From Bryum argenteum (Eukaryota; Streptophyta; Bryopsida; Bryales; Bryaceae), in NCBI GenBank assembly GCA_037043015.1, contig CM073325.1, forward strand, positions 13,495,001-13,559,000: 64,000 bases of DNA, read 5' to 3'. Made by a program: the position numbers and the translations under genes. Positions within the stretch are counted from its first letter, which is position 1. Each line of letters starts with the position of its first letter. The notes under the pieces are model-generated. The model ran no database searches. It saw only the letters and a list, made by a program, of their open reading frames with translations, and was not told where the DNA came from. This document shows positions 23,452 through 48,545 of the stretch, one piece after another.

Positions 23452-24460
23452 AAAGGGGAAAAAGTAAGATATAAGTACGCACAAAATGTTGGGCGTTGCT
23501 TCTTCTGAAGCGGTTCGGAAGTGTCATTGTCGTAGTCATAAACTGGATCCGAATCGCCACTTTCTTCCTCAAAAGCGGTACCATCCACGTATGCCGATAA
23601 AAGTCCGTCAAATATCTCTTCATCAGCTTCAACAGCAATGAGATGACGGTTCGATCGCGCGCACGCAATCACGGAAGCACCTACATACCAGCAACCAACA
23701 TCAAAACTACAATATTGCATAAGTTGAATGAGAGTTGGTATAAGCAACAACTAACCAGTACTAGGGCTCCAGTCAAAAACGATTCCCCGCTCGTCTGTGA
23801 GAGAATCAATAAAGCATTGGATGAAGGAGGGATCCTTCTCTCGCGAGCCACGCCACGGAGTACCATCTTCCTTCTTACGAATGGAGTCATTGCTCGCAAA
23901 ATTAAAAACATGGTCCTCCTCGTCGAGAAGAATCGGCACACCTGCGTACTCTTTCGCAACCTGTCGTATGGAGAATCTGGTGGCAAAAGACTTCCGAACA
24001 AATACCTTTATGTGGAAGTTGTGAGTCTGCAAAATTCAATACATGAGAGTGATTTAAAAAAACATTGTAAATAATGATGAATGATGATTTGAATGCAGTA
24101 TGAAGACCGTACCGTTTTCACGTGGGGGTTCGTCGAGGCCATTGGCATGGGATTATATCCCCACCAATCTCGCACCATTCGGAATTCGAAAGCCTTTGAC
24201 TCGGCATCCAGAGCTTTCTCGACTCGACGGTCCTTGGGATGCATAACAAGTATCGCACCCTCATCTGTCAAGTTGTAGAAAGCAAAAAAGAACACACTCT
24301 CGAAGTAGCTTTTCTCTCGCTTGTTCCATGAAGGGATTTCGACGGACGACACGTCAGGCACGGGTAAGTTCTCGGGAACGTCTGCGTAGAGGAGATCAAT
24401 GCCGGGATGCGGGTGTTTCGTACCCATCTCCTTACATGGGTACTTCCTGTCCTTGCCAAT
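23452..24460 (-). other. Permuted DNA amino-methyltransferase-like domain
   Basis: Exons 24460-24113, 24026-23756 and 23680-23452 encode, in order, a motif-IV-like strand (IDLLYADVPEN), the following helix/strand pair (FAFYNLTDEGAILVMHP), a variable region, and then the SAM-binding motif (IVFDWSPSTGASVIACARS) with the motif-II acid (LIAVEAD). Catalytic motif first and SAM motif last is the beta-class arrangement of N4-cytosine/N6-adenine methyltransferases. The usual DPPY or SPPY is DVPE here, so activity is uncertain. The SAM loop SPSTGAS replaces FxGxG. The 3' end is cut by element C. Confidence 0.62.
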
Positions 24461-25774
24461 CTTTGGAAATCACAAAAACTTACACATGTTCTAAGCGATG
24501 AGTTCCCATCAGAATTTCGGAAAGAAACGAATGTAATAAAAAATTTAAGACTTAATACCTTTCTGATGTGGTTGATGATGTCCATGACTTGTGTGTCCCA
24601 ATCTTTTGTTTCATGAGCTGCCTTTTGAACAGAAGCTCCAATGTCCCCCTTTTCCAACTACATTGGAAGAGAAATAGTAATCTCAGAAGACAAACACTCT
24701 CCAACATGCTTCGGTTCAAGAAATGGGAGTGAAGCGAACTTCTTTCCGGAGTTGTGGTCGGCAGTGAAAGATTGAGGAGGGGACCCCGCATTCGTAAGAG
24801 CGCCTACAGAAATCTGAGTCAATGGTCGACCGCGTCTACCTGCATTGTTGGTCGCTCCATCTGAAGTCTGAGTCAAATCAGCTTCTTCTGGACCTGCAAC
24901 ATCTTGATGGAGCGGACCGATTTCATCGGGCTCTTGATCAAGATCAACGACAGGCTCCGCAGCGGCGTTGCGACGCTTTCTGTTTGCTCGGGTTCTAGGT
25001 TGTGGAACCGGTGAAGGAGGTTCCGAGGGTGAGACAGGTGCGCTTGGTAAAATGGAGACGTCTTCGTCGTCATCGTCATCGATCTCCATAGCAGCATTGC
25101 CTGTTGTGTTGGAAGTGAGGTTGCGAAGCAGATGTCTCTCTTCCTTGTGCACAAAGTTATCGTTGCACTCTAGGAACCAACCACCGGTCAGCAACTGTGA
25201 GTTGGAAAACCGACTCTGTTGGGCTTTGGAGAAGATGCTTGATGGATCATTTGAGACGGTTACGTCCTCGAGCTCAGCTGGAATGAACCACGAAGCCAAG
25301 GCTCCTTTCCCAACAAGCTCCTGTTTCAAGTACCTATAGTGAAGGAAACATATTACAATGACAAATTCAGTATAGCGTACTGGCAATCAGCGAAATGTGT
25401 AGGAAATTAAAAAGTTAAGTGAATACATACCGGAATAAGAGCCGTTTAGTAGTAACCTTGCCACCACTAATCTTCTGAATATCGGAACCTTTGATAAACT
25501 TGGGGCTGGCATTTTGAGCGAGGTAGTTCCCGAATGCCTTTTCCCATAAAAGCAATCTCCATTTCTCAACATATGCGGATGGCTTTAGTACCGCATCCGA
25601 CCACTGAATGGAAATGCTGCCATCCTCCAGAAGTTGTTGTATTCCACTTTCGAGGGATTGTTGTAACTTGAATGAAGTAGAACCTGTTAGGAAAAATAGA
25701 TATAGGATGACGACAGTATTTATTGGACAGAAGTTCAGTATAACATACCTGAGCCCAAAAAGAAGCACGATGCA

Positions 25775-27294
25775 TGTCGCGACCCTAATTACTCCAACTC
25801 TTCTTTTTCTTAGTGAGCCTTACTTGGTAGCGGAATCACGGCTCACTTAGTTGGTAGCAACCGGCCACGACTTTGCTAACACTTGCATGTGCCCCACACA
25901 TACAATGTTAGCACCATTCTAAGTCAAGGTGTCCAACCCACCTTGACTCTATAACTCATTATCCGGTACTCATTACCCGGAACTCCCACCAACACATAGG
26001 TATGCCAACCCGGAACTCCCACCAACACATGGGCATGCCACTTGGTGGCACGGGGCGGCCTTCCACAAATGTCCAAGCTCCCAAGGGTGCTACTAATCAC
26101 CCCCGGAGCTAACCGCCCTTATCCATTGTCCAACTTCCCACTAGTCGCCTTCCACTCTTGTTTCTCACCCCATTCGGGACTTTGCCGGAAATCCTCCCGG
26201 AATCCGGCACTAGTTTTCCCGGGGACTAGTTTGGACCGGGACTCTTTCCAACCTAATGTTGCGGGATGCTCAAGAGCATCCCACAATGCCCAAGATGTAG
26301 GAGTGAGGCTTCCTTTCCATGCCTCACCTTCTTGAGCCATTCCCGGTCACTCCCGGGAACCGGCACTACTTATCACGGGGACTAACTTGGAGAGGGACAC
26401 TTCCCTACCCCATGTTTAGAAAGGCTCCAAAGCACTCTCTACTTTCCACAAGGTGCGGGAGTAAGGCCCCATCCCAAGCCTCACCCCTTGGAGCCACCCC
26501 GGCTCCTCAAGGCACCATGTGCAAGTGAGGAGGGAGACCACCCCTCCTCATAGTACTCTCTGGAGTCTTCGGTAGGCCCCCCCCTCTTGTGTTGAGGGGC
26601 CTTCCGTGACACACTTTTGTTTTGGAAGACCACCCGTTTTTGCCTTAGTCTCAAAAACGGGCCGTATCTTCTTCTCGGGCTAACTTGTAGCTCAGTTATC
26701 CAAATGGGACGTGCGAGCCCATTTTCGACATCTACTCTTTGAGTAGATGTCGATGGACTCCCCACTTGTCCCAATTGGAGCTTCTATGTGGGAGCTATGC
26801 TCCTCTGAACATTCGGGAGTCCCGGGAGGCAGCAGTCCCGGAGTCCCGAAGTCCCGATGCTTTGGAGAGCCATATCTCCCAAAGCATTGCTTTGCTCCTC
26901 ACGAGCCTTAGCATTTTGGAAAGCTCTTGTCCAGAGCTTTTCAAAGACATGCAACATGCCGCCATCCATGAAGGACGACATTTTGAGTCCCGAAAGGCAA
27001 CACTCCCGAGTCCCGGAGTGTCCCGGAACGCGCTGCAACTTTGGAGAGTCATATCTCATGACTCACAACTCCAAATCGCGCGTTCTTTGGACCCATGGAT
27101 GCGTGCTCAAACAAGGTTTCCAACCATGTAAGACACGCCACCAAGTTCGTCCCGAGCACGATGCCATTGCGTGCTGTTTGCTCGGGACTCCCCTTGGTCA
27201 CTTCACCTTGTCTCTTGCCGAGCCCGGGGCGTCACTCCCGGAGTCCTCTCGGCTCACCACGGTGTTCGGGCATCCTTTGGAAAGGGATGTGACA
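25775..27294 (-). mobile_element. Solo LTR, family A, in an exon of the methyltransferase gene
   Basis: A 1520-bp LTR from TGTCGCGACC to GATGTGACA with 5-bp duplications ATGCA (25770-25774 and 27295-27299). Removing it and one duplication joins the coding sequence in frame (the minus strand reads LAFLHRASFWAQ across the site) up to a GTATGT donor. That shows the site was an intact exon at insertion. Confidence 0.95.
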
Positions 27295-27733
27295 ATGCAA
27301 AAATGCAAGCAATGTTTTATCATTCATAGGGCGTTCTACTGGGAAGTGGACAGATTCACGAACATCATCTGGCGCATTCCACCATTGGAGCCACTTTCCC
27401 TTAAAATCAAAGTGGACATTGGTGGTGGCTACCATGTGCAAACGTTCGATTGTCATGTCCGGCTTCAGGTTTTGGCTGTAGTGAGAATAGATCTGCATAT
27501 AGAACAAATTGAAGTAGTTAATTTCAGTATTGATCAATAACAGTATTGAGTCTCATTAGGAATTAAGTAGGTTGAATAATTTACCTCTTTCGGGAATACT
27601 TTTCCAAGTTGGTTATTGGCCACAGCAACCATATTGTCGAACTGTTTGCCACGAATGGATTTGATTTCCGATTTAATGGCGTTATCCATGGCACTCCAAA
27701 CTCCGGCCCAGTTTGCTTTTCTTTGGGGGTATT

Positions 27734-29052
27734 TGTCGCACCCCTAATTACTCCCAACTCTTTTTCTTCAAGTAAGCCTTACTTGGTAGCGGAATCACGA
27801 CTTACTTTGTTGGTAGCAACCGGCCACAACTTAGCTAACACTGCACATGCCAAGCACACACAATGTTAGCACTCTTTCTAGTCAAGGTGTCCAACCCACC
27901 TTGACTCCCCCAACTCATTACCCGGAACCCGTAAACCGGAACTTCCACAAAACACATGGGCATGCCACTTGGTGGCACGGGGCGGCCTTCCACACATGTC
28001 CAAGCTCCCAAGGGTGGCACTACTCACCCCCGGAGCTAACCGCCCTTGCATATTGTCCAACTCCCCACTAGTCCCCTTCCATTCATGTCTACACTCTCCA
28101 TTCGGGACATTACCGGAACCGCACTACTTTTCACGGGACTAGTTTGGAGCGGGACACTTTTCCAACCCAATGTTTCGGGATGCACACCACAAGCATCCCA
28201 TAGTGCCCAAGGTGCGGGAGTGAGGCTCCATCCCAAGCCTCACCCCTTAGAGCCACCCCGGCTCTCCTCGGCACCATGTGGAAGTGAGGAGGGAGACCAC
28301 TCCTCCTCATAGTACTCTCTGGAGTCTTCGGTAGGCCCCCCCCTCTTGTGTTGAGGGGCCTTCCGTGACACACTTTTGTTTTGGAAGACCACCCGTTTTT
28401 GCCTTAGCCTCAAAAACGGGCCGTATCTTCTTCTCGGGCTAACTTGTAGCTCAGTTATCCAAATGGGACGTGTGAGCCCATTTTCGACATCTACTCTTTG
28501 AGTAGATGTCGATAGACTCCTCACTTGTCCCAATCGGAGCTTCTATGTGGAAGCTATGCTCCCTTGAACATTCGGGAGTCCCGGGAGGCAGCAGTCCCGG
28601 AGTCCTGAAGTCCCGATGCTTTGGAGAGCCATATCTCCCAAAGCATTGCTTTGCTCCTCACGAGCCTTAGCATTTTGGAAAGCTCTTGTCTAGAGCTTTC
28701 CAAAGACATGCAACATGCCGCCATCCAAGAAGGACGACATTTTGAGTCCCGAAAGGTAACACTCCCGAGTCCCGGAGTGTCCCGGAACGCGCTCCAACTT
28801 TGGAGAGCCATATCTCATGACTCACAACTCCAAATCGCGCGTTCTTTGGACCTATGGGTGCGTGCTTGAACAAGGTTTCCAACCATGTAAAGCACACCAC
28901 CAAGTTCGTCCCGAGCACGACGCCATTGCGTGCTGTTTGCTCAGGACTCCCTTAGTCACTTCACCTTGTCTCTTGCCAAGCCCGGGACGTCACTCCCGGG
29001 GTCCTCTTGGCTCACCACGGTGTTCGGGCATCCTTTTGAAAGGGATGTGACA
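27734..29052 (-). repeat. 3' LTR of D2
   Basis: Begins next to the purine tract and ends (minus sense) GGGTGCGACA at 27734, followed by the GTATT duplication. Confidence 0.95.
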
Positions 29053-29064
29053 CTCACCCCCACC
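29053..29064 (-). promoter_or_regulatory. Polypurine tract of D2
   Basis: The minus strand reads GGTGGGGGTGAG directly before the 3' LTR, identical to D1. Confidence 0.8.
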
Positions 29065-29893
29065 AAACAGCGTCGATGCCCTCATCGACAATCTCTCTTG
29101 TCGGCAGTACCAAGTTCTTGAGGTAGCCTCCTCCTTGGCACTTGCATTGCGTTCGGGGTAGCTAGCCCCGCAATGCTCTAAGCATCCTTCCACTTAGAAA
29201 TTGGCTAAGTCCTCAAGGTGGCATTAGATAGGTCTAAGGTCCTCGGCACCCTAGAGTTTGCCTTCAAAGGACCTACTGAAATCTAGACCTATCTACTTTG
29301 AGACTTACTTGGAATGCCCCAATGGCCCCAAGTTAGGCTCAACTAGCCTATCATACTCACATGACTTAGGAATAAATTCAAGGCTAACCAATACTTTCTT
29401 GGTCGCAACACCAAGCCCTCTTTTAAGCACTTAGGCTCTCAAGTGGTGAACTTTGCTCGCCTAGGGATAATGCTAAGTCCCGCCCGACCTAGCCTTTGCT
29501 TCACCCTACCGAGACATGGATGGCCAACCCATGCGTTGACAATGGTCAACCCGCAAAGGGCACTTTTATGAGCCCGTGCCACTATCTTGCTCCCGCCCGA
29601 GCAAGTCCTAAGCTTGAGAGTCATGGGGATTCACCCACTCACAACTCCCAAGCCAAGGTCCCTGTTTTGCAGCATTCCAAGTATTGGCTTCGCGTATCCT
29701 TCAACCTCTTCCAACCAACCTAGCAATCCAACATGAGACTAGGACACATCTCACATTCAACATGCAATCACGGAAACTTGCCATTCAATTTGCAACTTTA
29801 TTGTCAACCAAGTATTACAACATGTGCAATTTGCACCAAATACTAGACAAAACTTAGGCCAAGTCTATACAAGTGTGGTGATTCACCCCCACT
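29065..29893 (-). other. D2 3' noncoding tail
   Basis: About 830 bases with no supported ORF, collinear with the D1 tail at 4410-5242. Confidence 0.7.
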
Positions 29894-31468
29894 TCAAAGG
29901 TTGATGTCCTCATCAATGCTTTCTCGGTGTCTTGGATCTCCGTTGGCTTTCATACCTTTCCACCATCTCCTTTGCATTTGCCATGTACTTGGCCTCAACC
30001 CATGTTGCTTCCTTCTCATGGTACCCCGCCACTTCACCAAGTATTCTTTGCCCTTCTTCTTGGTGTTCCGGCATTTCAAAATGCCTTCTACCTCGAACTC
30101 TAGGTGATCACCAACTAGTTCGGGTGGAGGCCGCAACACTTGCTTGCGTTCGGCCTCACACCTATCTTCGTGATATGGCTTGAGCAATGACACATGGAAG
30201 GTGGGGTGAACCTTGATCTCCGGTGGTAAGTCCAACTTATAAACATCCTCAAACAACCGTTTTGCAATGACAAATGGACCCGCATACTTTGCCATGAATT
30301 TGGGAGTCATGCCATCCGGTAAGGTGAAGTTCTTCACATTCAACCACACCTTTTGGCCCTCCTCATACTCCTCATGGCGCCGCCCTTTGTTAACTTGTTT
30401 CACATACCTCTTTTGTGCCTTGTCTAAGTACCACTTGGTCTTCTCAAGTAGTTGCTCTCTCTTGGCTACAAAGTCTTCAGCAACTTGGCTTCGTTCCAAC
30501 TCCGATTGCAGTCCTTCCAAAGCTAGGTCGGCAGGCATAAGTGGCTCAACTCCATAAGCCACCTTGAACGGCGATTGCCCCGTAGGCCGAATGCCTTGAT
30601 GCATTGTAGCTAAACTCCGCCAAACCCAAGTACTCACTCCAATCACTTTGGTCTGCACTCACATAGTTGCGAAGGTATTGATTCAAGACCCCATTCACCC
30701 GTTCCGTTTGCCCATCGGTTTGAGGGTGAAAAGCCGTACTAAATGTCAACTTTGTCTTCATCCTCCTAAACAAGTGCCTCCAAAATGCACTTGTAAACTT
30801 GGGGTCTCTATCGGATACAATCACCTTTGGCAATCCATGGTGCCGCCACCAAACGTTGAAAAAGAGCACCGCGTTTTCAAAGCGGTCGCCGTCCCTTTTG
30901 TTGGCTCCATCCTTGCCAACTTACTAAACCTATCAACCACCACAAAGATGGCGTCACTCCCTCGTGACTCCGGAAGGCTTGTAATGAAATCCATAGAGAC
31001 ACACTCCCATGGACCATCCGGGATAGGCAAAGGCCTTAACAAACCCACTTGCTTTCGGTATGACGCCCGGTTGGCTTGACAAGTGATACAAGTTTTCACA
31101 TAATGGGCAATGTCTTCCTTCATCCCGGGCCAATAGAACCTCTTTGAAACCGAGCATATGGTGGATTTCTCCCCCCTATGCCCGGCCAAGGGGTTGTCAT
31201 GCTCCTCCTTGAGCACACTCAACCTCAACTTGCCCTTTGGAACATACACCCTATTTTGCTTGAACTTGATCATACCTTGGTGAAGCCGGATACCTTTGGG
31301 CTTCTTGCCACACCTAAGTTCATCTAAGAACTTTTGAGCCTCGGGGTCTTTCATATATGCCTCTCTTATCCGCTTTGCCAAATCACCTTCTCCCGCATAC
31401 ATCACTCTCAAGACTTGCGTGGTACTTGGCCTATGTTCATCCTTCCGCTTTAGTGCGTCCGGCACCAC
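29894..31468 (-). pseudogene. D2 integrase with chromodomain
   Basis: Three overlapping frames (31468-30821, 30869-30546, 30658-29894). The HHCC zinc domain is complete (HDNPLAGHRG, then CITC). The catalytic residues are visible: D in CVSMDFITS, D in VSDRDPKF, E in DGQTERVNG. The C-terminal domain (TLPDGMTPKFMAKYAGPF) is followed by a chromodomain near 30090-30000 (FEVEGILKCRN, EYLVKWRG), which classes the family as a chromovirus; chromodomains can direct integration to marked chromatin. Shifts near 30830 and 30590 break the frame. Confidence 0.9.
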
Positions 31469-32743
31469 GTTCTCTCCGGCCCGGCTTGTGGATCAACTCC
31501 ACATTCATAAGCACTAAGGTATCATACCACCTCAATTGCTTTGGTGTGACTTTGGCTTGTGTCTCAAAGTACTTCAATGAAACATTATCGGTGAATACCT
31601 TGGTCTTGTGGAGACCAAGGTAGTGTTGCCATGTCTTCAAACAATGCACCACGGCAAACATCTCCTTTTCATGCGTTGGCCAATTGATTTGAGTGCCATC
31701 CAATTTCTTGCTCTCAAATGCAATTGGCCTTCCTTCTTGCATGAGCACTCCCCCGATGGCAAAGTCACTTGCATCGGTATGCACCTCAAAAGGCTTCTCA
31801 AACTCGGGGAACTTCAATACCGGTGGGGAGGAGAGTTTCTCCTTGAGTTCTTGAAAGGCTTGCTCACATGACTCGGTCCACTCCAAGGTCAAGTTCTTCT
31901 TAAGCAAATCGGACATGGGCTTAGCAATCTTCGAGAAGTTCTTTATGAACCTCCTATAATAATTAGCCAACCCAAGAAATGACCTCACTCCTTTTTGTGA
32001 AGTAGGCCGGCTCCACTTCTTGATTGCTTCTACTTTCTTGTGGTCCGGTTTGACACCTTGCCCCGTCATAATGTGTCCCAAGAACTCAATCTCTTGCAAG
32101 CCAAACTCACTTTTCTCCCCATTTGCATACAATTTATTGTCCCTAAGTTTTTGAAGCACAATTGCAAGGTGTTGTGCATGCTCTTCCTCGGTTTTGGAGA
32201 ACACCAATATGTCATCAATGTAGACAATGACAAACACATCCATCTCTTGATGGAACACCGTATTCATAAGGGTTGTGAACGTTGATGGGGCGTTGCACAA
32301 CCCAAAAGGCATCACCAAAAACTCATAAGACCCATATCTAGTCCTACAAGCGGTTTTCTCCACATCCTCACCGCAATCAAGATTTGGTAATATCCCGACT
32401 TCAAGTCGATCCGGCTAAAATACTTGGCCCCCGCCAACCGGTCAAAGAGATCATCAATTCGAGGCAAAGGGTAGTTGTTTTTGATAGTGATCTTATTGAG
32501 CGCCCGGTAATCCACGCACATGCGTAGTTTCCCTCCTTTCTTGTCCACAAACAAGACCGGTGCTCCATAAGGTGACTTGCTTTGGCGGATATATCCCTTT
32601 GCCAAAAGCTCATTGAGTTGTTTCTTCAACTCTACCAACTCCCTTTGGTTCATCCGGTAAGGTGCCTTGGATGGCGGTGCCGCTCCCGGCACCAACTCGA
32701 TCTTGTGATCAACCTCTCTTCGTGGCGGTAACTCATCCGGCAA
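31437..32743 (-). pseudogene. D2 reverse transcriptase and RNase H
   Basis: Two overlapping frames (32743-32312 and 32363-31437) make up RT and RNase H. The first carries the fingers and palm start ([33 protein letters not shown]). The second carries MPFGLCNAPSTF, the catalytic YIDD (VYIDDILVF near 32215), the connection (FLGLANYYRRFI) and RNase H (VHTDASDFAIGGVLMQEG). One shift near 32350 separates them. Lengths and spacing are normal for a chromovirus. Confidence 0.9.
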
Positions 32744-33861
32744 CTCCTCCGTGAGAACATCACCAAAGCCTTGGATGACCTCCCGAATACACTTGGGAGG
32801 TGTTGAGTTAGAAGTGGGCTTATTCCTTCAACTCCCAAATCGGTCCTTAGCATTATCAAGAACCGGGTTTCCTCTAACTCCTCTAAGTTCACCAAGTTGA
32901 TCCTACTCCCTAACATGTTGGGTGCCTTGGTGAACTCCAACTCAATCTCCTTGCCTTTGGGGTTGGCAACCACACTCAATGGCCGCCTCCTTATATCCAC
33001 CCCATAGGTGTCAAAGAAAGTATTACCCAAGATGAGATCAATCCCATCCATCTCACAAACCGTGAAGTTTTCCACAAAGGTGAAGTCTTGACACTTCACT
33101 TCTACTCCCGTAGCTACAAGGCATGTTTGGTGAGGCTTGCCTTTTGCAAACCTCACTTGGATGGGCTTGCTTGCCTTGCTCAAATGCAAGCCCATCCTCT
33201 TCGCAGCTTCCGGACTTATGAACGAGTGGGTTGCCCCTGTATCCAACAGAAAGCAATTGTCACTTTTACCAACAACTCCTTTTAGGAACAACAAGCCACC
33301 ACCTAACTTGGAGCAACTTGCTCTTGCAATGAAACCCCCTTCCAATAGGTGACTTGTAACAAGGATTCTCCTATTTTCCAAACTCACCTTTGGTTTGGAG
33401 CAATCCTTTGCCATGTGGCCCTTTTCTCCACAATTGTAACAAGTTATGTGACTTGTCTCCTTCTTGGACTTGTCCCCACTTTTGGTTTTGTCCTTGGCAA
33501 ACTTGTCCTTCCCATCCTTGGAAGGCCCACCCTCACCGCCTTTATGCTTTTGCCAACCATGTTTCTTGTGTTGGCGCTTTGACTGCGACTTGCCTTGCTC
33601 CCCGGTGGAAGTCCCTTCTTTGGGAGTCTTCCGGTGACCTTCATCATCACCAATTCTTTCTGCCAACTTGAGCAACTCGGCACAAGTTTCTGGCAGCTTT
33701 GGCATCCTAAATAATGCCCGCTCCGCCCAACCTTGGAGTCCATTGAAGAAAATGACCTTTTTGGCCAATTCATCTAACTTCGGGAGCACATTTAAATGTG
33801 CATTGAAATCTCTCACATAGGCATGAAGGGTGCCCGTTTGCTTCAATCGCACAAGGGCCAT
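32650..33861 (-). pseudogene. D2 gag C-terminus, zinc knuckle and protease
   Basis: An open frame of 403 codons: the rest of the capsid domain, a Lys-rich spacer, the zinc knuckle CYNCGEKGHMAKDC near 33440-33400, and the aspartic protease with LLDTGATHSFIS near 33255-33215, ending around FTKAPNMLGSRINLVNL. The last 70 or so codons after about 32870 are in the wrong frame, so a shift separates protease from RT. The catalytic DTG is intact, unlike in D1. Confidence 0.87.
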
Positions 33862-33939
33862 GCCATCCCGAATGTCTTGGTACTCGGGGTGAAGCGCTCA
33901 CTTAGGATCTCCTTGAAACCGGTCAAGTTAAGTTGCTCA

Positions 33940-34473
33940 CTACTCCCGCATTTTCATCCCGGAACGAGTCCACCACAAAAGAGCATGCTCTTTCAAGAAG
34001 GTCACGGCAATGGTGATCTTGTCCTCTTCACGAGCTCTTTGGGCCTCAAAGTAGAGCTCAAGTTCCACAATGAAGTCCTTGACCTTGTTTGCCTTGCCCA
34101 ATCCCGTGAAGGAAGAGGGCAAGTTAGTCTTGCACAACTTGCGGGAAGAAGGGCTTGATGCCCTCCCTTTGAGCTCCTTGATCTCTTTTTGCATGACTTG
34201 AAGAGTTTTGACAAGCTCATTAAACATTTCATCTCGTGCCTTCCGCTGGTAGCCTCGTTTCCCGGGAACGGGACTTGAGGGAACTTCTTCCTCATCATGG
34301 TGAGTGTCCTCCTCACCACTAGCAACTTCCCTTGGGTCCCCTTGCTCCTCTTGAATTTCCTCCCGCTCTTCTGAGACATCTTGAGAAAACTCCTCATTAG
34401 GGGCATCCCCGGCCTCAAGGGCTTGACTACGTGTGTTCGGGCCACGTCGCGAGCTTCCGGCCCCACGTGCCAT
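33940..34473 (-). pseudogene. D2 gag, N-terminal part
   Basis: Starts at ATG 34473 (MARGAGSSRRGPNTRS). An acidic segment is followed by the start of the gag capsid domain (FTGLGKANKVKDFIVELEL; HALLWWT). The frame is lost near 33950, where single-base deletions relative to D1 occur, and gag continues in another frame from 33861. The shift is small and could also be a consensus error in the assembly. Confidence 0.85.
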
Positions 34474-34502
34474 CCTACTCTTGATTGAATCCCGTCACGT
34501 AG

Positions 34503-34517
34503 CCTGCTCTGATACCA
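34503..34517 (-). promoter_or_regulatory. Primer-binding site of D2 (initiator tRNA-Met)
   Basis: The minus strand reads TGGTATCAGAGCAGG two bases after the LTR end, identical to the D1 site. Confidence 0.93.
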
Positions 34518-34519
34518 AG

Positions 34520-35840
34520 TGTCGCACCCCTAATTACTCCCAACTCTTTTTCTTCAAGTAAGCCTTACTTGGTAGCGGAATCACGACTTACTTTGTTGGT
34601 AGCAACCGGCCACAACTTAGCTAACACTGCACATGCCAAGCACACACAATGTTAGCACTCTTTCTAGTCAAGGTGTCCAACCCACCTTGACTCCCCCAAC
34701 TCATTACCCGGAACCCGTAAACCGGAACTTCCACAAAACACATGGGCATGCCACTTGGTGGCACGGGGCGGCCTTCCACACATGTCCAAGCTCCCAAGGG
34801 TGGCACTACTCACCCCCGGAGCTAACCGCCCTTGCATATTGTCCAACTCCCCACTAGTCCCCTTCCATTCATGTCTACACTCTCCATTCGGGACATTACC
34901 GGAAACCGCACTACTTTTCACGGGGACTAGTTTGGAGCGGGACACTTTTCCAACCCAATGTTTCGGGATGCACACCACAAGCATCCCATAGTGCCCAAGG
35001 TGCGGGAGTGAGGCTCCATCCCAAGCCTCACCCCTTAGAGCCACCCGGCTCTCCTCGGCACCATGTGGAAGTGAGGAGGGAGACCACTCCTCCTCATAGT
35101 ACTCTCTGGAGTCTTCGGTAGGCCCCCCCCTCTTGTGTTGAGGGGCCTTCCGTGACACACTTTTGTTTTGGAAGACCACCCGTTTTTGCCTTAGCCTCAA
35201 AAACGGGCCGTATCTTCTTCTCGGGCTAACTTGTAGCTCAGTTATCCAAATGGGACGTGTGAGCCCATTTTCGACATCTACTCTTTGAGTAGATGTCGAT
35301 AGACTCCTCACTTGTCCCAATCGGAGCTTCTATGTGGAAGCTATGCTCCCTTGAACATTCGGGAGTCCCGGGAGGCAGCAGTCCCGGAGTCCCGAAGTCC
35401 CGATGCTTTGGAGAGCCATATCTCCCAAAGCATTGCTTTGCTCCTCACGAGCCTTAGCATTTTGGAAAGCTCTTGTCTAGAGCTTTCCAAAGACATGCAA
35501 CATGCCGCCATCCAAGAAGGACGACATTTTGAGTCCCGAAAGGTAACACTCCCGAGTCCCGGAGTGTCCCGGAACGCGCTCCAACTTTGGAGAGCCATAT
35601 CTCATGACTCACAACTCCAAATCGCGCGTTCTTTGGACCTATGGGTGCGTGCTTGAACAAGGTTTCCAACCATGTAAAGCACACCACCAAGTTCGTCCCG
35701 AGCACGACGCCATTGCGTGCTGTTTGCTCGGGACTCCCCTTAGTCACTTCACCTTGTCTCTTGCCAAGCCCGGGACGTCACTCCCGGGGTCCTCTTGGCT
35801 CACCACGGTGTTCGGGCATCCTTTTGAAAGGGATGTGACA
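34520..35840 (-). repeat. 5' LTR of D2
   Basis: Minus-strand sense TGTCACATCC to GGTGCGACA, followed (leftward) by the primer site. It contains the same series of inverted repeats as the other family-A LTRs. Confidence 0.95.
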
Positions 35841-36260
35841 GTATTGGCGTAATAAGTAGCTTCTGCATTATCCGATGCTTTTGCTAACCTCCTCTACATG
35901 GCACAGAAGTAGTAGTCAGAACTTGTAATGAAATGAGTATAGGATAGCAATGTTTAGTACGTATTCAAAAGTCTTACCGCATACAAGAATTTGACGAAGA
36001 CGTCCAGTGTGACAGGATACCATGTTTCTTTTTTCGCTTTAGCGTTTTTGCAAATTTGGTAATCCTCCGGGGTAATCAGATCCTTGAAATCTTCAAGTTT
36101 CAACTTACCGAATTTCCTCATGCGTTGAAGCTTTGCACATAAACTGTCTTCGACATGGTCATGTTCGGTAGACCTAATCATCAAAAACAGATATGAGAAT
36201 ACGTGGAGGTTATGAAGTTATGAAAAAAAATTATTGAAAGAATGGTTTCAAGTACTAACC

Positions 36261-36700
36261 AATTGATGTCATTCATGGCGTCAAGAAGAAGATTGCTTTG
36301 ACCGCGAGCATCGAGAACGATGCAATCAACTGAGATGTACCATGATGGATCCATCAGGTGGTACCTCTCAATGTGACGCATCCACGCCGTCACACGGTGA
36401 TTACCTTCGTATACGTAGAAATATTTACCACTGAGATCATGAAGATCGGGATCCGACCTCAAAGTCTTCTCGAACTCTTCATTGGCATCTCTCCATAGCG
36501 GATTCTTCCATACACCGTCTTCTGCATCAACCTCTTTTTCTCTTCCTTTTCTATCGAATGGAGATACATACATTACCCGATCTCCTTCTCGGTAACCCTT
36601 GTTGAAATCGTTTTCGAGTTTCCTGACGTCTTGCTCTGAGATAGGTCGCACTTTTGGGTAACACAGCAAACGGCATAGTGGAATGAGCAGACGAGACTTC
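36261..36700 (-). other. ParB/sulfiredoxin-like domain of the methyltransferase gene
   Basis: Within the first exon, the stretch from KVRPISEQDVRKLENDF through YFYVYEGNHRVTAWMRH to ISVDCIVLDARG has the pattern of ParB/Srx folds. These show a strand-helix with a conserved parameter motif, then the signature GNHR (GxxR in the family) followed by a helix and a hydrophobic strand. In bacteria and phages ParB-like domains are DNA-binding or nuclease modules, and fusion to adenine/cytosine amino-methyltransferases is common. The assignment rests on motif pattern, not on a profile search. Confidence 0.6.
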
Positions 36701-37224
36701 TTAACAGGTTTGATACGGAACCTGTTAATGATTGCAATGGAATCACTCTTGTGAATCATTCGCATCTCGTTCGCACTCTATCCGGGGTCTTTGTTTTGAA
36801 GATGAGGGGGCATGTGAACTATGCCGACGTTGACACTCCCAGGCAAAGGAGATTCGTCGTCATCTGAGCGCGACTCATGTTCATCGAGATCTTGCATAGT
36901 CCTTGGAGGAAAATCGGGCGCAATAGGAGTATCGTGCGGCACTGTAGGAGAGATGCCTACGACGTCTTCTAGAGGGACGACTGTGCTGTCATCTTCAGCC
37001 GGAGCAGGAGCTGTTTGGAAGTTTTCAGAAGGTGTGGTATCTTCTTCGTCTACAGGAGATTGCATCTCGGATATAGTCATCTGACAATTCAAGAAACAAA
37101 ATACAACATCGCACAAGAATAATAAGAATAAATCGAGGTAGTGAATATTAATTCAAACATAAAGATCGTAAGAAAAACAATAAACGTCTCAAGTAATGTT
37201 ATCATAAAACTATTTGGATTTTAA

Positions 37225-40200
37225 CTACGCTGCAAGTCGTGGTGAACGACGTGGTGTAATTCTAGCTAACGCCCTGGTTTCGTCTCGACGAGCTTTCACT
37301 CCAGTGTAGTAATTGCGCATGTAATCTGCTCTTTCAACTCCATCAACGTATACACTTGGAGTGTTACGGACAGGAGGGGCAAGAGGCGGAGTTTCGGGAA
37401 CCGATGTCAGAGCTACTACTAAACGGCGAGACTCTACTACAGCCATAACATGAGATTTCATAGCCGTTAAGTCGCTGTCGGCATCAGATTCTTCCTCCAT
37501 AGATACAACTTTAAGTGTCAATGGATCCTGCATTAACACGTAGAACACTCAACATTAGTATGTACAGTAATTCACATACAATGAACATAACTAATAATAT
37601 ATTACAATATATCAAACCACGTTGCTCCAGTAGTCTTCGAGATACATACAAAACATATCGATATTACACATCCATTAAAGCTAAAAGGCCTAATGAAAGT
37701 TTGTGATCGCATCACACCATGACTCTGAATTCTACTTATCCTTCACATATAATCAAGGCGACAAAATGATGAACATTAGGAAGAGGTCCTTGACCAACTG
37801 AATGACTATCAGTAAGGCAATATTGCAGTCTCATCAAATAGGAGAGGACCATCACGAAGACCATCAAATAACCAAAAAAAAACCAAAGGGGTGCAGCCTT
37901 GCGGTACCGCAGGATAGCATCGAAAACACGACAAGCCCAAGAACAGAATCAGTCCCTTCCCGAAGCACTGCAGTGGGAGCCCTGTCTGGGATGCCGACAC
38001 CCTCCCGGTGCAAGCTACAGTCAAGACAAGGAGGGAGGACCAGCACGAAGACCATCAAATGACAAAATCAGACCAAAGGGGTGCAGCCTTGCGGTACCGC
38101 AGGATAGCATGAAGAAAACGTCAAGACCATCACGAGCCCCTGTCTGGGATGCCGACACCCTTGCCGACACCTTCCTCAGGCAACCCCGGCGCAAGCTCCA
38201 ATCCAGACGAACAGGGAGGACCACCACGAAGACCATCAAATGACAAACTGAAACCAAAGGGGTCCAGCCTTGCGGTACCGCATGATAGCATGAAGAAAAC
38301 GTATAGACCAGATGGGACTCATGTCCTTCCCGAAGCACTGCAGTGGGTCCCCTGTCTGGGATGCCGACACCCTTGCCGACACACTCCTCGGCCGACCCCG
38401 GCGCAAGCTCAATCAAGACGAACAGGGAGGACCACCACGAAGACCATCAAATTACAAAATTGATCCACGAAGACCATCAAATGACAAACTGAAACCAAAG
38501 GGGTCCAGCCTTGCGGTACCGCAGGATAGCATGGAATACCACGGCAAGACCAAGAACAGAATCAGTCCCATCCCGAAGCACTCGTGGGAGCCCTGTTTGG
38601 GATGCCGACACCCTCCCGGTGCAAGCTACAATCAAGACGAGCAGGGAGGACCAGCACGAAGACCATCAAATGACAAAATCAGACCAAAGGGGTGCAGCCT
38701 TGCGGTACCGCAGGATAGCATGAAGAAAACGTCAAGACCATCACGAGCCCCTGTCTGGGATGCCGACACCCTTGCCGACACCTTCCCCAGGCAACCCCGG
38801 CGCAAGCTCCAATCCAGACGAACAGGGAGGACCACCACGAAGACCATCAAATAACAAAATGGATCCACGAAGACCATCAAATTCGCAACTGAAATCAAAG
38901 GGGTCCAGCCTTGATGGTACCGCATGATAACATCGAAATCACGACAAGACCAAGAACAGAATCAGTCCTTCCCGAAGCACTGCAGTGGGAGCCCTGTCTG
39001 GGATGCCGACACCCTTGCCGACACCTTCCTCGAGCAACCCTGGCTCAAGCTCCAGTCAAGACAAACAGTGACGACCACCACGAAGACCATCAAATGACTA
39101 ACTGAAACCAAAGGGGTGCAGCCTTGCGGTACCGCAGGATAGCATCGAAAAGCACGACAAGCCCAAGAACAGAATCAGTCCCTTTCCGAAGCACTGCAGT
39201 GGGAGCCCTGTCTGGGATGCCAACACCCTTGTCAACACACTCATCGGCCAACCTCGGCGCAAGCTCCAATCCAGACGAACAGGGAGGACCACCACGGTGA
39301 CCATCCGACCATATGGCAATCAAATCGATGGGGTCAGCCCTGATAGCATCAAAAAAACGGAAAGACCAAGAACAAAAAAACGGCAAAACCAAAAACAGAA
39401 TTAGTCCTTCCCAAAGCACTCGTGGGAGCCCTTTCTGGTTTGCCTACACCCTCCCCTTCGAAGCTACAGTCAATACAAGCAGCGAGGACCAGCACGAAGA
39501 CCATCAAATGACAAAATCAGACCAAAGGGGTGCAGCCTTGCGGTACCGCAGGATAACTTGAAGAAAACGTCAAGACCATCACAAGCCCCTGTCTGGGATG
39601 CCGACACCCTTGCCGACACCTTCCTCAGGCAACCCTGGCTCATGCTCCAGTCAAGACAAACAGTGAGGACCAACACGAAGACCATCAAATTCGCAACTGA
39701 AACCAAAGGGGTCCAGCCTTGCGGTACCGCAGGATAGCATCGAAAAGCATGATAAGACCAAAAACAGAATCAGTCCTTCCCGAAGCTGCAGTGGGAGCCC
39801 CTGTCTAGAATGCCGACACCCTTGTCGACACCCTCCTCGTGCAACCCCGGCGCAAGCTCCAATTCAGACGAACAGGGAGGACCACCACGAAGACCATCAA
39901 ATGAAACTAATGGGGTGAGGCCTGCGGTACTGCTGGATTGCATAAACAAAATCGACAATACCAAGAAGAGAATCAGCCCATTCCCGAAGCACTCGTCGGT
40001 GCCCCCATGCAGGATGCCGGCATCCTCCTCAGGCAATCCCGGTGCAAGCTCAGTCAAGACGAACAGGGAGGACCACCACGAAGACTATCAAGATTCGCAA
40101 CTCTGTGCAATTCAGGCAGCGCATTCTCACCTTGAAGCCGTTTCGTTTCAAGTAGAATGCTTCGAATTCGGCGCGCGTTTTGGTTGCTCCTGGTTGGGGA

Positions 40201-40384
40201 TTATGTGATCTGTAATACTCCTCATAAAACTCCGCAAACAAGCTGGATTCGGACGATCAGAAACTCACATTCTCGGATCATCTTACTTCACGACGTTCTC
40301 TTCTTGGTGATTCTTCTCTTCAACTTGTTCCTCCAATCTCGCCATTTCTCCCTCTACTTGTGCAATCACAGCTCCTTCCTCCAT
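37225..40384 (-). CDS. Small spliced gene of unknown function, upstream of the methyltransferase gene
   Basis: Predicted exons: 40384-40287, 40242-40131 and 37527-37225. Donors are GTAAGA and GTGAGA, acceptors TCCAG and ATGCAG, and the phases agree (98+112+303 nt), giving 170 residues. The start has an amphipathic Glu-rich stretch (EGEMARLEEQVEEK) that could be a coiled coil. Exon 2 reads FAEFYEEYYRSHNPQPG. Exon 3 has an acidic patch and ends ITPRRSPRLAA before TAG at 37225-37227. The first intron is only 44 nt, short for plants, so exon 1 is the weakest part. The second intron is 2.6 kb and holds a tandem repeat. Exons 1-2 might also splice to the first exon of the methyltransferase gene at 37080, which begins at an acceptor. 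I recognise no family. Confidence 0.5.
37883..40090. repeat. Eleven-unit tandem repeat (about 180-240 bp period) inside an intron
   Basis: Units recur with a shared start (CCAAAGGGGTGCAGCCTTGC or close) at about 37883, 38072, 38254, 38493, 38684, 38895, 39107, 39320, 39521, 39703 and 39903. Each unit also carries CTGTCTGGGATGCCGACACC and a GAAGACCATCAAAT spacer. Unit lengths vary by internal deletion or duplication. It lies wholly within the 2.6-kb intron of the small gene. ORFs through it change frame between units and are not supported as coding. Confidence 0.88.
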
Positions 40385-41248
40385 CCCTAACTTGAGAGTT
40401 CAAAAGCAAAAAGAGGCCTTGAAAGATCATCGCTTTCAACCTCATTCTGGACGTCCACAGATTTCTAATTCCCAAATACAGCTACCCTTCTGACACACCT
40501 ATCGTTATATTCTCGACTCTCCAATTCCTACTCACTTTTTTATATTTAGAGTCTGACAAAGCTGCAAATTTGTTTCCTCCTCGCAGAAAGGCATGGCATC
40601 CCTGTCGCGCTTGTCAAGGAATCCAAATTCGGTGCACTGCATTAGGGTTTGCATGATCTGCCTCCATTAAACGGAGCTCAGTCCGCCTGTTCCGCCGGAC
40701 CGCCATTCCCGCGCTGCAGCGACGCCGAGCCTACCAGCTCACGCCTTCTTGCCTGCTGTCCGATCGCGAGCTACTAAGGAGGATATCCGGATCCCCTCTC
40801 CGGCCCTCTATACCCGGCCCCTCTCCGGCCCTCTATACCCGGCCCCTCTCCGGCCCTCTATACTCGGCCTGCCGTTACCCACATTCACTTAACCGGATCC
40901 CGATTGTAGCCCGCACTTACCCGGTTCGTCTACCCGAGCCCGTCACTTTTTACCTACCCGGCCCGTCCACGAGCCCGTCACTTTTTACCTTCCTGGCCCG
41001 CAGCCTACCCGCCCGCACCTACCCTGGTCATATTGGACTACTTCAATATATACTTTAAATGAATATTAGAAGTACTAAAAGTACCCGAAGTACAAGAAAT
41101 ATGAACTTAAGACCCGTAAATGACATTTCACCAAATAAAAGAATTTCCAAATATCAAACCAGGTTTCCACTTGAAAATAACTATTACATATATTTCTTTG
41201 GCAGAAGTCTACATCTATCATGAAACCATACGATGCCAAAACTCAACA
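40385..41248. other. Intergenic, with a short GC-rich tandem repeat
   Basis: No supported ORF. About three copies of a 24-base unit (CTCTCCGGCCCTCTATACCC plus GGCC) lie at 40795-40866, followed by a degenerate ACCCGGCCCGTC repeat to about 41020. The rest is AT-rich and would hold the 3' end of the two-exon gene that follows. Confidence 0.6.
40535..40544 (-). promoter_or_regulatory. Possible TATA box of the small spliced gene
   Basis: The minus strand reads TATAAAAAAG about 150 bases upstream of the proposed ATG at 40384. The distance allows a short 5' leader. This is pattern only. Confidence 0.3.
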
Positions 41249-42022
41249 CTACATCGAACGGAAGAATGGACTCTCGTTGATTGTGTACTTAACCAACCCT
41301 AAGTCCTCCCAGTAAACCAGGAAGTAGGGTTTCTCATGTACCTCCTTCTCTAATTCTTCATCGCTTCTGTCAACTTCTTCCGCTTCATCATTTTGTGTTT
41401 CCTGATGTAAAAGGGCTTCCGCTGTCTCCCGGACATCAGTGACTCTTTTCTCCTCATACATTGTTGCTTCATTTACTAATCGTTCATCTTCTTCTTCCAA
41501 TCCTCTCCGATCCTGATAACAACACATGTTCATATTAAACCATACTTGTTTTCGGAAATAGTTTGACCTTTATGAATATCATCATATTTGAAACATTTCC
41601 TACTTCATTACCTCATGTGTAGAGTCCACACCTCCATCGTCATCCCCATCCGCGCAAACAGCCTGACTGAACGTCTTGTACTGCCCTCTATTCCCTTCCT
41701 CCTCCTCTTCCTCACCTTTATCAGTCCCGACACTCTCCGGGACACTATCGAGGTTGAGCGACCGCATTTTGATAGTCCGCCTGAATGGCGGAAGCACATC
41801 ATCGTCGATCAAGATATCGTACCCGTCTGGTTCCTGATCATCACCGCTAGAGCTTATCCCATCGCGCTTCCTCATAGCACTACGTCTCTGTGCTTTAGAA
41901 TTAGTAAACTTCGTACCACCCCTCCGCTTTTTCTTTCTCTGACCTACCTCCTTTCCTCTCTCATTACCGCTAGCGATTTCGTCCATGTTGCTTGCAATGA
42001 GATAACTTTTCACACGTTCCAC
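41249..42022 (-). CDS. Two-exon acidic protein of unknown function
   Basis: Exon 1 is 42022-41612 and exon 2 is 41512-41249, separated by a 99-bp GT-AG intron (donor GAG|GTAATG, acceptor TTATCAG) in matching phase, giving 224 residues. The N-terminus is basic with a nuclear-localisation-like cluster (QRKKKRRGG). The middle and C-terminus are strongly acidic (a run of six Glu; EEVDRSDEELEKEVHEKP). The protein ends with a hydrophobic/aromatic tail (YFLVYWEDLGLVKY). It has the same strand and orientation as the two downstream genes. I recognise no domain. The TATA box 60 bases upstream supports the start. Confidence 0.58.
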
Positions 42023-42082
42023 TAAACTAGTCCGAGTGTTCTCACTGCAAACGAAGAGGCTGAAATATGATTTTCATCTCCA

Positions 42083-42090
42083 TTATATAA
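42083..42090 (-). promoter_or_regulatory. TATA box of the two-exon gene
   Basis: The minus strand reads TTATATAATGG, about 60 bases upstream of ATG 42022, a normal plant TATA position for a short leader. Confidence 0.5.
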
Positions 42091-42583
42091 GTTCCCCCAC
42101 GCGGCTAAGAAACCCTAATCAGCCAACGCGTATTCCCGAACATGCCGCTCTCACCGGGTCTGACAATTCAAAATAAGCTTACTTTTGAACGCATCTATTA
42201 TCCAACTAAATCTCTGACAATGACTGCCGCCGTCACTTTTCTTTCTCCACCTACTTAATTTATGGACGAATCTCATATTTTTAATCGTGACTACTTAATG
42301 CAATTCTGTCATACACAATATTTTAAGTATTACAATTACTGTGCTTTTGAATGATCTTGCTCACGATTAAGAGTATCGAGTGTATGTACGTTTTATTATA
42401 AGAAATTAGGTTTAATAGGTATTCAAATCGTATGCAAACACCCTACACCAATTTGTCGTATTTGAACATTTGAAACGCACCTCAGACTCTCTTTCTCTGC
42501 GCACTTGTTGATGTTGTCTTCCTCGCCTCCGTCTATCATGGCATCATCCGCTCCCCTCCCTCCCGCTGCAAACGTCATTGCCA
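42091..42583. other. AT-rich intergenic stretch
   Basis: No supported gene. Possible minus-strand coding around 42490-42580 was considered but has no clear splice partners. Confidence 0.5.
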
Positions 42584-42817
42584 TTAGGTCTGAAGGCTTA
42601 AGTCCCCAATCTGCATTCCTCCGGGTGTGGATGGAGTGGCTGAAGTCACACCGTCTTGGCTAGCAATTCGATTCGGGTTTGATGAGTCCTCTCTCTGGTT
42701 AGAGAAACATGTCTTAGATCCTACCTCTAATCTTGTCCAGTACTCTGTCCTAGTCATGGTTGTCTTATTAGACACAGACGGACGTCGAGGATGACACGAC
42801 ATGTCGGGGCGAGACAT
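42584..42817 (-). other. Short minus-strand ORF of 77 codons, doubtful
   Basis: An open frame starting MSRPDMSCHPRRPS. It is noted because a 19-base stretch in it (42758-42776) is the exact inverse of 51580-51598 in the first exon of the Mutator-like gene, so both sides of the large element carry the same short sequence facing outward. No family is recognised. It could be a truncated inverted copy of that gene's start or chance coding. Confidence 0.25.
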
Positions 42818-42939
42818 TGAGCCTCGTAATGTCTAATAGAATCTGAGAATCTTTTTTTACCCTGGATTTACCTGTCCCACGTTGCATCCTACGTGGGGTC
42901 GCCACGTAGTGTGTACCAAAGAATACGGTTCGCGATCGC

Positions 42940-43245
42940 GCTTACGTAGGGATCGACCGGGCGGTCGCGTCATCTAGACCGGCGGTCGCCTTAGCCGGAC
43001 CGGGCGGTCGCCTTCTCGACCGGCGGTCGCCTTAGCGACCGACGACGCCCGTGTCGACCGACGACGCTTCCGTCGACCGACGACGCTTCGCCCAGTCGAC
43101 CGACGATCGCCCATAAGCGACCGACGTTCGCCCCTAGGCGACCGCCGATACAGCCGATGGGCGAACGTCGCTCAGTAGGGCGACCGCCGATCCAGGTGAT
43201 GGGCGAACGTAGCTCATAGGGCGACCGGCGGTCTACCCTCTAGAA
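42940..43245. repeat. GC-rich palindromic array (GACCGNCGGTCGCC type)
   Basis: A dense run of short units such as GACCGGCGGTCGCC and GCGACCGACGATCGCCC. The unit is itself near-palindromic (GGCGACCG against CGGTCGCC). Similar arrays adjoin most copies of the AT-rich block: 43905-44080, 44550-44700, 45755-45885, 47285-47545 and 51095-51395. ORFs that run through them are not supported as coding. Confidence 0.85.
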
Positions 43246-44959
43246 ACGAAGGACATGAACTTTGAAGAGCCATAACTTTTTCATTCGGACTCTGTTTTTG
43301 ACGAAATCACTTGGGTTGGGTCCCAAATTAAGTCTAGTTTATGTAGTAAAAATTGCAGACTCATACGATTAAGTATGAAAAAATGGCATGCATTTTAGTC
43401 AAGGGAGTACTTGTTTCTTGGGTTTTTAAACATTTGGCATGTTTTACCATTGCAAGCCTATTATGTGACATCAAAAAGGTTTTTGCATGATGTGTTTTAG
43501 ACAAGTGTGATCTTTAAATGCATCCCACAATCTTTGTAGTTGGAAGTATTTTGATCCAAATAATTTTAGTATTGGCTTTGCAATGATATTTCTACGATGA
43601 AAAAAGTGAAAAAGTGGATGATTTTTGAAGAGATAGATCTCCTTCAACCATCGTTAAATTTTGAATTTATTTTTTAGAATGGGTTCCAATTACAGTGTTG
43701 TATTGGTGATAGGAACCTCGATCCATTCGAAGATATATTGAAGATAAGGTATAATTTGAGTGTAAGGGGTCTATTACTGGACTATATTAATTGTTTTGTA
43801 AACTATTTGGCAGTTTTTATCATTGCAAGACTACTATTCGAGCCATAGCGAAGTGTAAGGTGTATAGGGAAATAGAGAGGGAAAGTAGTATTTATACTTT
43901 GCTTGGACCGGCGGTCGCGTGAGCGACCGACGATCGCCCATGATCGACCGACGATCGCCCATGAGCGACCGACGTTCGCCCCTGGGCGACCGCCGATAGA
44001 GCTGAAAGGCGAACGCCGCTCAGTAGGGCGACCGCCGATCCAGGTGATGGGCGAACGTAGCTCATAGGGCGACCGGCGGTCTACCCTCTAGAAACGAAGG
44101 ACATGAACTTTGAAGAGCCATAACTTTTTCATTCGGACTCTGTTTTTGACGAAATCACTTGGGTTGGGTCCCAAATTAATCCTAGTTTATGTGGTGAAAA
44201 TTTCAGACCCATACGATTAAGTATGAAAAAATGGCATGCATTTTAGTGAAGGGAGTACTTGTTTCTTGGGTTTTTAAACATTTGGCATGTTTTACCATTG
44301 TTAGCCTATTATGTGACATCAAAATGGTTTTTGCATGATGTGTTTTAGACAAGTGTGATCTTTAGATGCATCCCACAATCTTTGTAGTTGGAAGTATTTT
44401 GATCCAGATAATTTTAGTATTGGCTTTGCAATGATATTTCTACGATGAAAAAAGTGAAAAAGTGGATGATTTTTGAAGAGATAGATCTCCTTCAACCATC
44501 GTTAAATTTTGAATTTTTATTTTAAAATGGATTCCAATTACAGAACGTTCATGGGCGATCGCGGGTTCCGCATGCGCGACCGCGGGTCCTGCATGGGCGA
44601 CCGCGGGTCCCGCATGGGCGACCGCGGGTCCCGCATGGCGATCGCCGGTCCGCTGCAATTGCAGTTTGGGGCGACCGGCAGTCTGGAAGGGCGAGTGCAC
44701 AAGAGCTCCCGCTCTTGCTCTTGGATCCTCTTTTACGCAATCCCTCAATCTCTCATATTCAAATTTGAAATTCACCGCTTCAAGCATCTTCTCCGTTCCC
44801 CCTCATTTCCCTTAAATCTCCCTTCATTTTTCATTCTCCATCTTCTTCAAATTTCATATTCTCCGCTTCTTCACATTTTCCATAATGAAATGAAAATGAT
44901 TGTCATGGTCAATTGGTCATGGCTTTTGGCCAAGACTTGGGAGCATGATAAATGAAAAA

Positions 44960-45750: not shown

Positions 45751-45754
45751 CTCC

Positions 45755-48325: not shown

Positions 48326-48328
48326 CCT

Positions 48329-48545
48329 ACACTAAATAGGTAGATTAGTGTTAGATACACTAATTTACATAAATAGGCTATAAGTTTTTACTATTAGTCA
48401 ATATTTGTACCCTCTACAATGGTGAAGATGGGGATCCTTACATAGTATTGGAATCGATACTCTTGGTAAAATTTTTATCCCAAAAGTAAAAACTTGTAGC
48501 ATTTGCAAATCTTATAAAAATCTAACACTAATGTACCTATTTAGT
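48329..48545. repeat. MITE-like inverted repeat
   Basis: The left arm CTACACTAAATAGGTAGATT (from about 48330) is answered by its inverse ending at 48545, over about 30 bases with one mismatch. A further match of AAGTTTTTACT inside the arms follows, so most of the ~215 bp can fold back. No coding. Confidence 0.6.

Follow-up and report, generated by a model that had tools for sequence, protein, structure and literature searches.

A window of 64,000 nucleotides from the moss Bryum argenteum (GenBank assembly GCA_037043015.1, contig CM073325.1; C5:13495001-13559000 in our numbering) holds a gene that joins a plausibly ParB-like part to a domain related to DNA methyltransferases (MTases), and this gene is carried as cargo by a repeated DNA transposon, probably of the Mutator-like (MULE) kind. 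The initial annotation had left the choice between a host gene and mobile cargo, and it was the second that was borne out, by repeated copies, shared ends and target-site duplications. The element, approximately 14-18 kb long and best read as a MULE, contains a transposase, a small acidic open reading frame (ORF) and, in the opposite orientation, the ParB-like/MTase gene. We consider it fairly probable that this gene provides the MULE with a DNA-binding accessory protein of about 1170 amino acids, which would act without ordinary adenine methylation. A fuller interpretation is put forward more tentatively: a land-plant MULE may have recruited a ParB-methyltransferase of the prokaryote type and made of it a non-canonical protein, probably without methylating activity, that binds the element and counters silencing or helps to build the transposition complex.

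The host assembly (258.8 Mb, 25 contigs) was searched at the DNA level with the exon carrying the GNHR motif and with the transposase end of the element. At least 40 copies of each were scored, those of the GNHR exon at 87-100% identity and out of 509 candidates, which rules out a single-copy host gene. Twenty stretches around copies of this exon were fetched for comparison. Both ends could be read in seven copies, and a comparison of their flanks by script found target-site duplications of 9-10 bp in all seven: identical at 10 of 10 positions in five (CTAGTGGAAT, CTGGGGGTGG, CATGACACAC, TATTGTGACA and CGCTACAAGG), at 9 of 10 in one (CGACGCCGGC vs CGGCGCCGGC) and at 9 of 9 in the last (GACGGAGAG), all within the 9-11 bp by which MULEs are recognized. 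Terminal inverted repeats are present; the tips (GGACGTTGCTACCGTGTGAGCG and GGGGAAACCACCGGTGTGAGCG) form a short, imperfect pair that is continued by shared GAGCGGT heptamers; in some MULEs such repeats are absent. On the cargo side, the 15 copies read to the end have ACCGCTC heptamers followed by ACACCGGTGGTTTCCCC or close variants. Telomere repeats were also considered at the terminus and ruled out, the repeats being ACCGCTC heptamers. By its coordinates, the copy on C6 measures 18.3 kb, and another at C3:29.01 Mb about 13.8 kb. Transposase and cargo stood in the same order in the four copies that were followed across (C3:5.1 Mb, C3:0.5 Mb, C6, and C10). For two of them, C6 (L060 with L028) and C3:0.5 Mb (L061 with L024), the transposase exons and the cargo are open and the duplications agree at 10 of 10 positions; we infer from exact duplications and open copies that the element was recently active.

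The transposase is encoded in L060 and L061 by open stretches of 738 and 487 or 486 codons with an intron between them, while L062 has a stop in the first stretch, for which 142 homologues were found at E up to 0.01. NLAES, a C-x2-H pattern and SWIM-like cysteines, all read by eye, are what we take to be motifs of MULE-type transposases, and the element was assigned to the MULEs because of these together with the 9-10 bp duplications. The small ORF, with a basic start and an acidic remainder, is also present in L029, L060, L061, and L062.

In the window, the cargo gene occupies the minus strand from 37080 to 23479, with an exon-intron structure predicted from the genomic sequence. It had initially been described as nine exons with GT-AG borders in one frame of about 1100 codons. 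The borders were confirmed at the seven whole exons of the window, each preceded by AG and followed by GT (exon 1 may begin at the ATG), but the exons number ten, the last of them cut off, and the frame is interrupted by two TAG codons, at which L009 has Trp (exon 1) and Tyr (exon 6). The ten-exon model was drawn on L021 and mapped by alignment onto 15 other copies, four of which (L015, L020, L024, and L028) are complete at about 1170 amino acids, with no in-frame stop across 3525 nt; L010 has one stop, and the ten further copies have more stops or frame changes. Borders of the model are GT or AG throughout these copies, with the exception of the exon 5 acceptor of the model itself, the exon 6 donor in L016 and the exon 7 acceptor in L026. 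An AG stands directly before TTACAACAATCC or TTCCAACAATCC in the window and in the 11 of 15 copies where this pattern was found, and three proteins of the moss Ceratodon purpureus lack the six residues at the start of exon 5 in the model. Judging from the sequences, the first model places the exon 5 border of the open copies 18 nt ahead of its probable position, and moving it gives a protein of 1168 rather than 1174 amino acids. Upstream of the ATG, possible 5' exons lie at 37228-37533 and near 40400.

The initial annotation had also proposed an ancestry of the C-terminal domain in the beta class, and sequence comparison places its descent from the beta-class N6A/N4C amino-methyltransferases. 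All five family members searched matched N6_N4_Mtase of Pfam (best E 6.6e-4; sub-threshold by the curated cut-off where one was shown). Alignment by hhalign with five phage enzymes (from Agrobacterium phage Atu_ph07, Enterococcus phage phiSHEF11, Vibrio phage 1.024.O, and two more) gave 95% (E 3.4e-8) for a stretch of 55 columns at motif I and on either side of it, with a score of 60.0 vs at most 26.8 in 60 column-shuffled controls. In a tblastn search of phages, 287 records were returned at E up to 10; all 19 annotated rows among the 20 considered were DNA methylases, and the best of the matches listed was Atu_ph07 (E 3e-3 across 87% of the query). Plasmids gave a weak result (best E 0.2), with a DNA methyltransferase annotation in 18 of 20 rows and 12 of 22 records from Escherichia. 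The phage beta-class adenine methyltransferases share with the moss protein an alignable permuted core at 17-21% identity. As had been claimed, a motif-IV-like strand precedes the S-adenosylmethionine (SAM) loop and the motif II acid, the order motif IV to motif I being visible both in the alignment and in a tblastn match that spans the two.

What the phage enzymes retain has nonetheless been replaced in the moss element: their motif IV reads DLPYG, DPPYN, DPPYG, or DIPYG vs DVPEN in the window family and DAPEG in Ceratodon, their motif I [AM]GSG vs S[AP]STG, and their HPTQKP or HPTEKP corresponds to GSREKDP. The catalytic pattern [DNS]PP[YFW] is absent, since D-V-P is followed in the 15 copies by E (13 copies), D (L017), or K (L016), and all three Ceratodon proteins have D-A-P-E. 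The residue normally found there is an aromatic that stacks on the flipped base, and its loss in 15 of 15 copies and three of three Ceratodon proteins speaks against an ordinary active N6A enzyme. The motif I strand and the motif II acid are retained, and Ser takes the place of the first Gly in the SAM loop. Profiles from the PDB yielded no convincing match, with dynein light chains (E 0.031-0.034) ranked above the adenine methyltransferase DpnA (E 0.42) by the MTase profile, and the NCBIfam profile search returned nothing useful. No relative of the MTase and ParB-like parts was detected at E 1e-3 in the viral or bacterial/archaeal contigs scanned with two short peptide patterns per scan, and the direct phage origin suggested by the initial annotation was not supported.

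For the first exon, the label ParB-like is plausible by sequence. GNH is invariant in the 36 aligned homologues and R is kept in 90% or more, giving a motif of the G-x-x-R type, and the IPLCRL flank and the later strands could fit what we take to be a ParB/Srx-like layout. PHROG 1033, "ParB-like partition protein", was matched by 9 of the 36 (best E 0.0021); tblastn of this part in phages gave no useful match.

Whole-protein searches found named homologues only in Ceratodon purpureus, in agreement with a gene of the plant lineage. Three Ceratodon proteins align with 68% of the model (46-49% identical, E 1e-207 to 1e-227); they start within exon 3 and so bear on the later junctions only, and two of them (P0002 and P0003) are without further stretches. 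The ParB-like exon alone had 85 protein matches (weakest E 1.9e-12), including a fourth Ceratodon protein, P0140 (KC19_VG030900), whose V suggests the V sex chromosome of Ceratodon. One contig size, 674632, recurs for a homologue of the transposase (P0059) and for one of the ParB-like exon (P0174), which suggests that the two may co-occur elsewhere.

Between copies, the cargo gene is under purifying selection. The ratio of nonsynonymous to synonymous substitution rates (dN/dS) among the four open copies was 0.153-0.205 (six pairs, dS 0.05-0.40), well away from chance. Divided by part in three pairs, it was 0.69-1.08 in the N-terminal tail, 0.05-0.07 in the ParB-like domain, 0.12-0.14 in the middle region, 0.20-0.31 in the linker, 0.03-0.06 in the MTase-like domain, and 0.11-0.31 in the C-terminal tail. 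The MTase-like domain had the lowest value in two of the three pairs, the exception being L020/L028 (ParB-like 0.051 vs MTase 0.059). The N-terminal tail, residues 1-84 in L015, L020, L024, and L028, thus evolves at about 0.7-1.1, with the remainder constrained. Exon 1 of the transposase gave 0.11-0.20 in three pairs.

From its N-terminus, the protein consists of a variable tail, the ParB-like domain, a long middle region, and the C-terminal MTase-derived domain. It would bind the element's own DNA via the ParB-like domain, with the terminal heptamers or internal tandem repeats as possible targets, and the MTase fold, devoid of a canonical DPPY site, would act without ordinary adenine methylation. 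In this way the protein may shield the DNA of the element from host silencing or stabilize the transposase complex, working like VANC of the VANDAL MULEs without being its kin. The altered active site is common to the Ceratodon proteins and lies within one of the two most constrained parts.

Several points weigh against this interpretation. In the sequences searched for it, the exact heptamer occurred near the element ends only, so that binding to it is a guess. The copy counts of the GNHR exon and of the transposase end are both lower bounds (40 scored each), and five of the 20 fetched copies (L009, L014, L018, L019, and L022) were excluded from the set of 15 for insertions or missing parts. 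Two of the five members compared with Pfam are near-identical copies, and the phage tblastn result refers to 20 of 287 records, one of them without annotation and several from near-identical phages, with a best E of only 3e-3. Motif IV was placed by one alignment and by the weak Atu_ph07 match spanning it, and the Pfam and hhalign matches start after it; the loss of its aromatic residue would also leave room for catalysis of another kind. The ParB-like reading of the first exon, proposed initially, held for the GNHR motif and the PHROG matches but not for the other profiles: Pfam gave no match to ParBc, also with 10 homologues, and hhalign against P1 ParB, plasmid RepB, and six ParB N-domains gave 0.1-0.2%, within the shuffled range (for the six N-domains, a score of 13.6 vs up to 16.5 in 60 shuffles). 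As for the transposase, Pfam provided no convincing name in 23 aligned members, with a weak match to Transposase_mut in one of the 23 (E 0.034); of two sequences of the second exon, one weakly matched SWIM (E 0.58).

Alternatively, the protein could function as a true DNA methyltransferase whose motif IV is unusual (D[AV]PE), placing N6-methyladenine (6mA) or N4-methylcytosine (4mC) on the element's DNA as marks. The strong constraint on the MTase domain (dN/dS 0.03-0.06) and the retention of the motif I strand and the motif II acid would be in line with this, the second position of motif IV also varies in the phage enzymes (DLPY, DIPY, and DPPY), and self-marking has been proposed for a brown algal protein in the available part of the source (PMC12477816). 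We nevertheless regard it as unlikely, given that Glu stands in place of the aromatic residue in all three Ceratodon proteins, as well as in 13 of 15 copies (the other two have Asp, L017, and Lys, L016), that Ser replaces the first SAM-loop Gly, and that HPTQKP has been lost. Gene capture is known in MULEs, according to excerpts of two sources (PMC4858842, PMC13317346), and a captured host or phage gene could be passive cargo with no role for the element, as in Pack-MULEs. This is very improbable here: passive fragments should decay, yet 4 of 15 copies have the complete gene with its exons kept, purifying selection acts on it at dS up to 0.40, and its first exon has 85 homologues elsewhere.

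The element itself might belong to another DDE superfamily, such as one that is KDZ-like. KDZ transposases, which may contain SWIM, are large, and so is the transposase found here, with two open exons (738 and 486-487 codons) and no convincing Pfam match. NLAES and C-x2-H, as we presume these motifs are to be read, and the weak Transposase_mut match fit MULEs instead, as do the duplications of 9-10 bp, which makes a place in another superfamily rather improbable. Published MULEs mostly have duplications of 8-11 bp and often SWIM, with 9-11 bp in most rows of the table in the available part of the source (PMC6446971).

The reading that we prefer, a MULE with a DNA-binding accessory protein, has counterparts in other systems. 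Algal transposons carry accessory proteins of the ParB-plus-methyltransferase kind, and in the available portion of PMC12477816 the Sola1 protein resembles ours in its length (1104 vs about 1170 amino acids), in its two domain types (the ParB-like part being plausible here) and in its gene, an additional one that a large DNA transposon carries on the other strand from the transposase. The algal protein, compared by description only, differs in belonging to a Sola1 element of an alga, whereas the present element is MULE-like and resides in a land plant; the protein encoded here also has a non-canonical motif IV. The kind is thus known from algae, and what is new is the MULE superfamily, the land-plant host, and the altered catalytic motif. 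How an anti-silencing factor encoded by an element may function is modelled on VANC of the Arabidopsis VANDAL MULEs (PMC5735166; PMC10398659, both seen as excerpts), which acts on tandem-repeat targets in its VANDAL MULE and removes methylation (PMC5735166). VANDAL elements are likewise MULEs with a second protein, but VANC, compared by description only, is not described as methyltransferase-derived in that excerpt (PMC5735166). Genes of a DNA-modification type are also carried by Mariner elements in algal virus genomes (methyltransferases; PMC3627910) and by fungal DNA transposons (TET/JBP; PMC12730594); these belong to other enzyme families, transposon groups, and hosts, and the available parts of the two sources do not mention a ParB-like part. 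A literature search found no title on land-plant transposons carrying ParB or methyltransferase genes and no paper on moss MULEs with methyltransferases, which is weak evidence of absence, as few subscription journals were covered.

If the interpretation is correct, the transposon-borne ParB-methyltransferase proteins known in algae also occur in a land plant, and in another superfamily of transposons, which would suggest a portable accessory module; a DNA-marking enzyme may then have become a helper protein of the element. The combination of an altered catalytic motif with strong selection allows a direct test between marking of DNA and mere binding to it in such proteins. Mosses, in which gene editing is routine, would allow tests of what this element-encoded candidate for anti-silencing does.

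The copy in the window is damaged (Table 1). The initial annotation had taken 23452..37080 as the whole feature, while the element reaches its terminus at 56966; its match to the other copies runs from 23453 rightwards to 42755 and continues at 51602-51885 and 53176-56966. Cut at 23453, the copy is without approximately 1.2 kb that would hold exon 10 and the other terminus. An element end at 23453 was ruled out, as all 17 other copies compared go on beyond this point with related sequence for about 0.7-1.3 kb. An end at 42755, with a Helitron reading there, was likewise rejected: a second repeat is inserted at that point and other copies continue. Rather than three retroelements, the span of the gene contains two long terminal repeat (LTR) insertions, a solo LTR and a full element, with three LTR copies in all.

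Table 1. Features of the transposon copy in the window (positions count from the first nucleotide of the window; a dot marks features given without strand)
Feature	Positions	Strand	Remarks
Remains of one MULE-like copy	23453..56966	.	transposase end at 56966, cut at 23453, four insertions
Cargo exon 9	23479..23680	-	remainder of motif I and motif II acid, ASVIACARSNRHLIAVEAD
Cargo exon 8	23756..24026	-	MTase core as far as motif I, VFDWSPST
Cargo exon 7	24113..24460	-	motif IV strand LLYADVPENL and following MTase core
Cargo exon 6	24559..25333	-	TAG at 24658-24660 in window copy
Cargo exon 5	25431..25666	-	start at AG before TTACAACAA, 18 nt inside first model
Cargo exon 4, second part	25749..25774	-	
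Solo LTR in exon 4	25775..27294	.	ATGCA duplicated
Cargo exon 4, first part	27295..27492	-	split by solo LTR
Cargo exon 3, second part	27585..27733	-	
Full LTR element in exon 3	27734..35840	-	GTATT duplicated
Cargo exon 3, first part	35841..35893	-	split by LTR element
Cargo exon 2	35978..36173	-	
Cargo exon 1, second part	36260..36777	-	ParB-like domain (plausible label), EGNHRVTAWMR
Cargo exon 1, first part	36781..37080	-	ATG, variable tail; then TAG 36778-36780
Minisatellite within element	37840..40100	.	also in L009 and L010, borders approximate
Small ORF	41252..41986	-	MDEIASG... and DRRGLEEE..., two exons by reading
Transposase gene	42538..56502	+	before 42755, 51602-51885, 53176-56502; not open throughout in window copy
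Second repeat in transposase gene	42756..51601	.	GGTTGTCTTATTAGACACA near both ends, GTCCTAGTC duplicated (9 bp)
Further insertion in transposase gene	51886..53175	.	
Transposase-side terminus	56912..56966	+	ACCGCTC heptamers, ending CACACGGTAGCAACGTCC

The full LTR element is presumably of the Ty3 type, a label given from its open frames. The repeat of 8.8 kb within the transposase gene is probably another MULE, and several nested inverted copies of about 500-765 nt were observed in it. The minisatellite between the small ORF and the cargo gene differs among copies and is a candidate binding array. Another minisatellite, at 57700-60900, has a spacing of 21 bp and is open in several frames on both strands. 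The first part of the window (1-22300) contains more retroelement-like gag and pol open frames, together with stretches of the LTR family that is inserted in exons 3 and 4.

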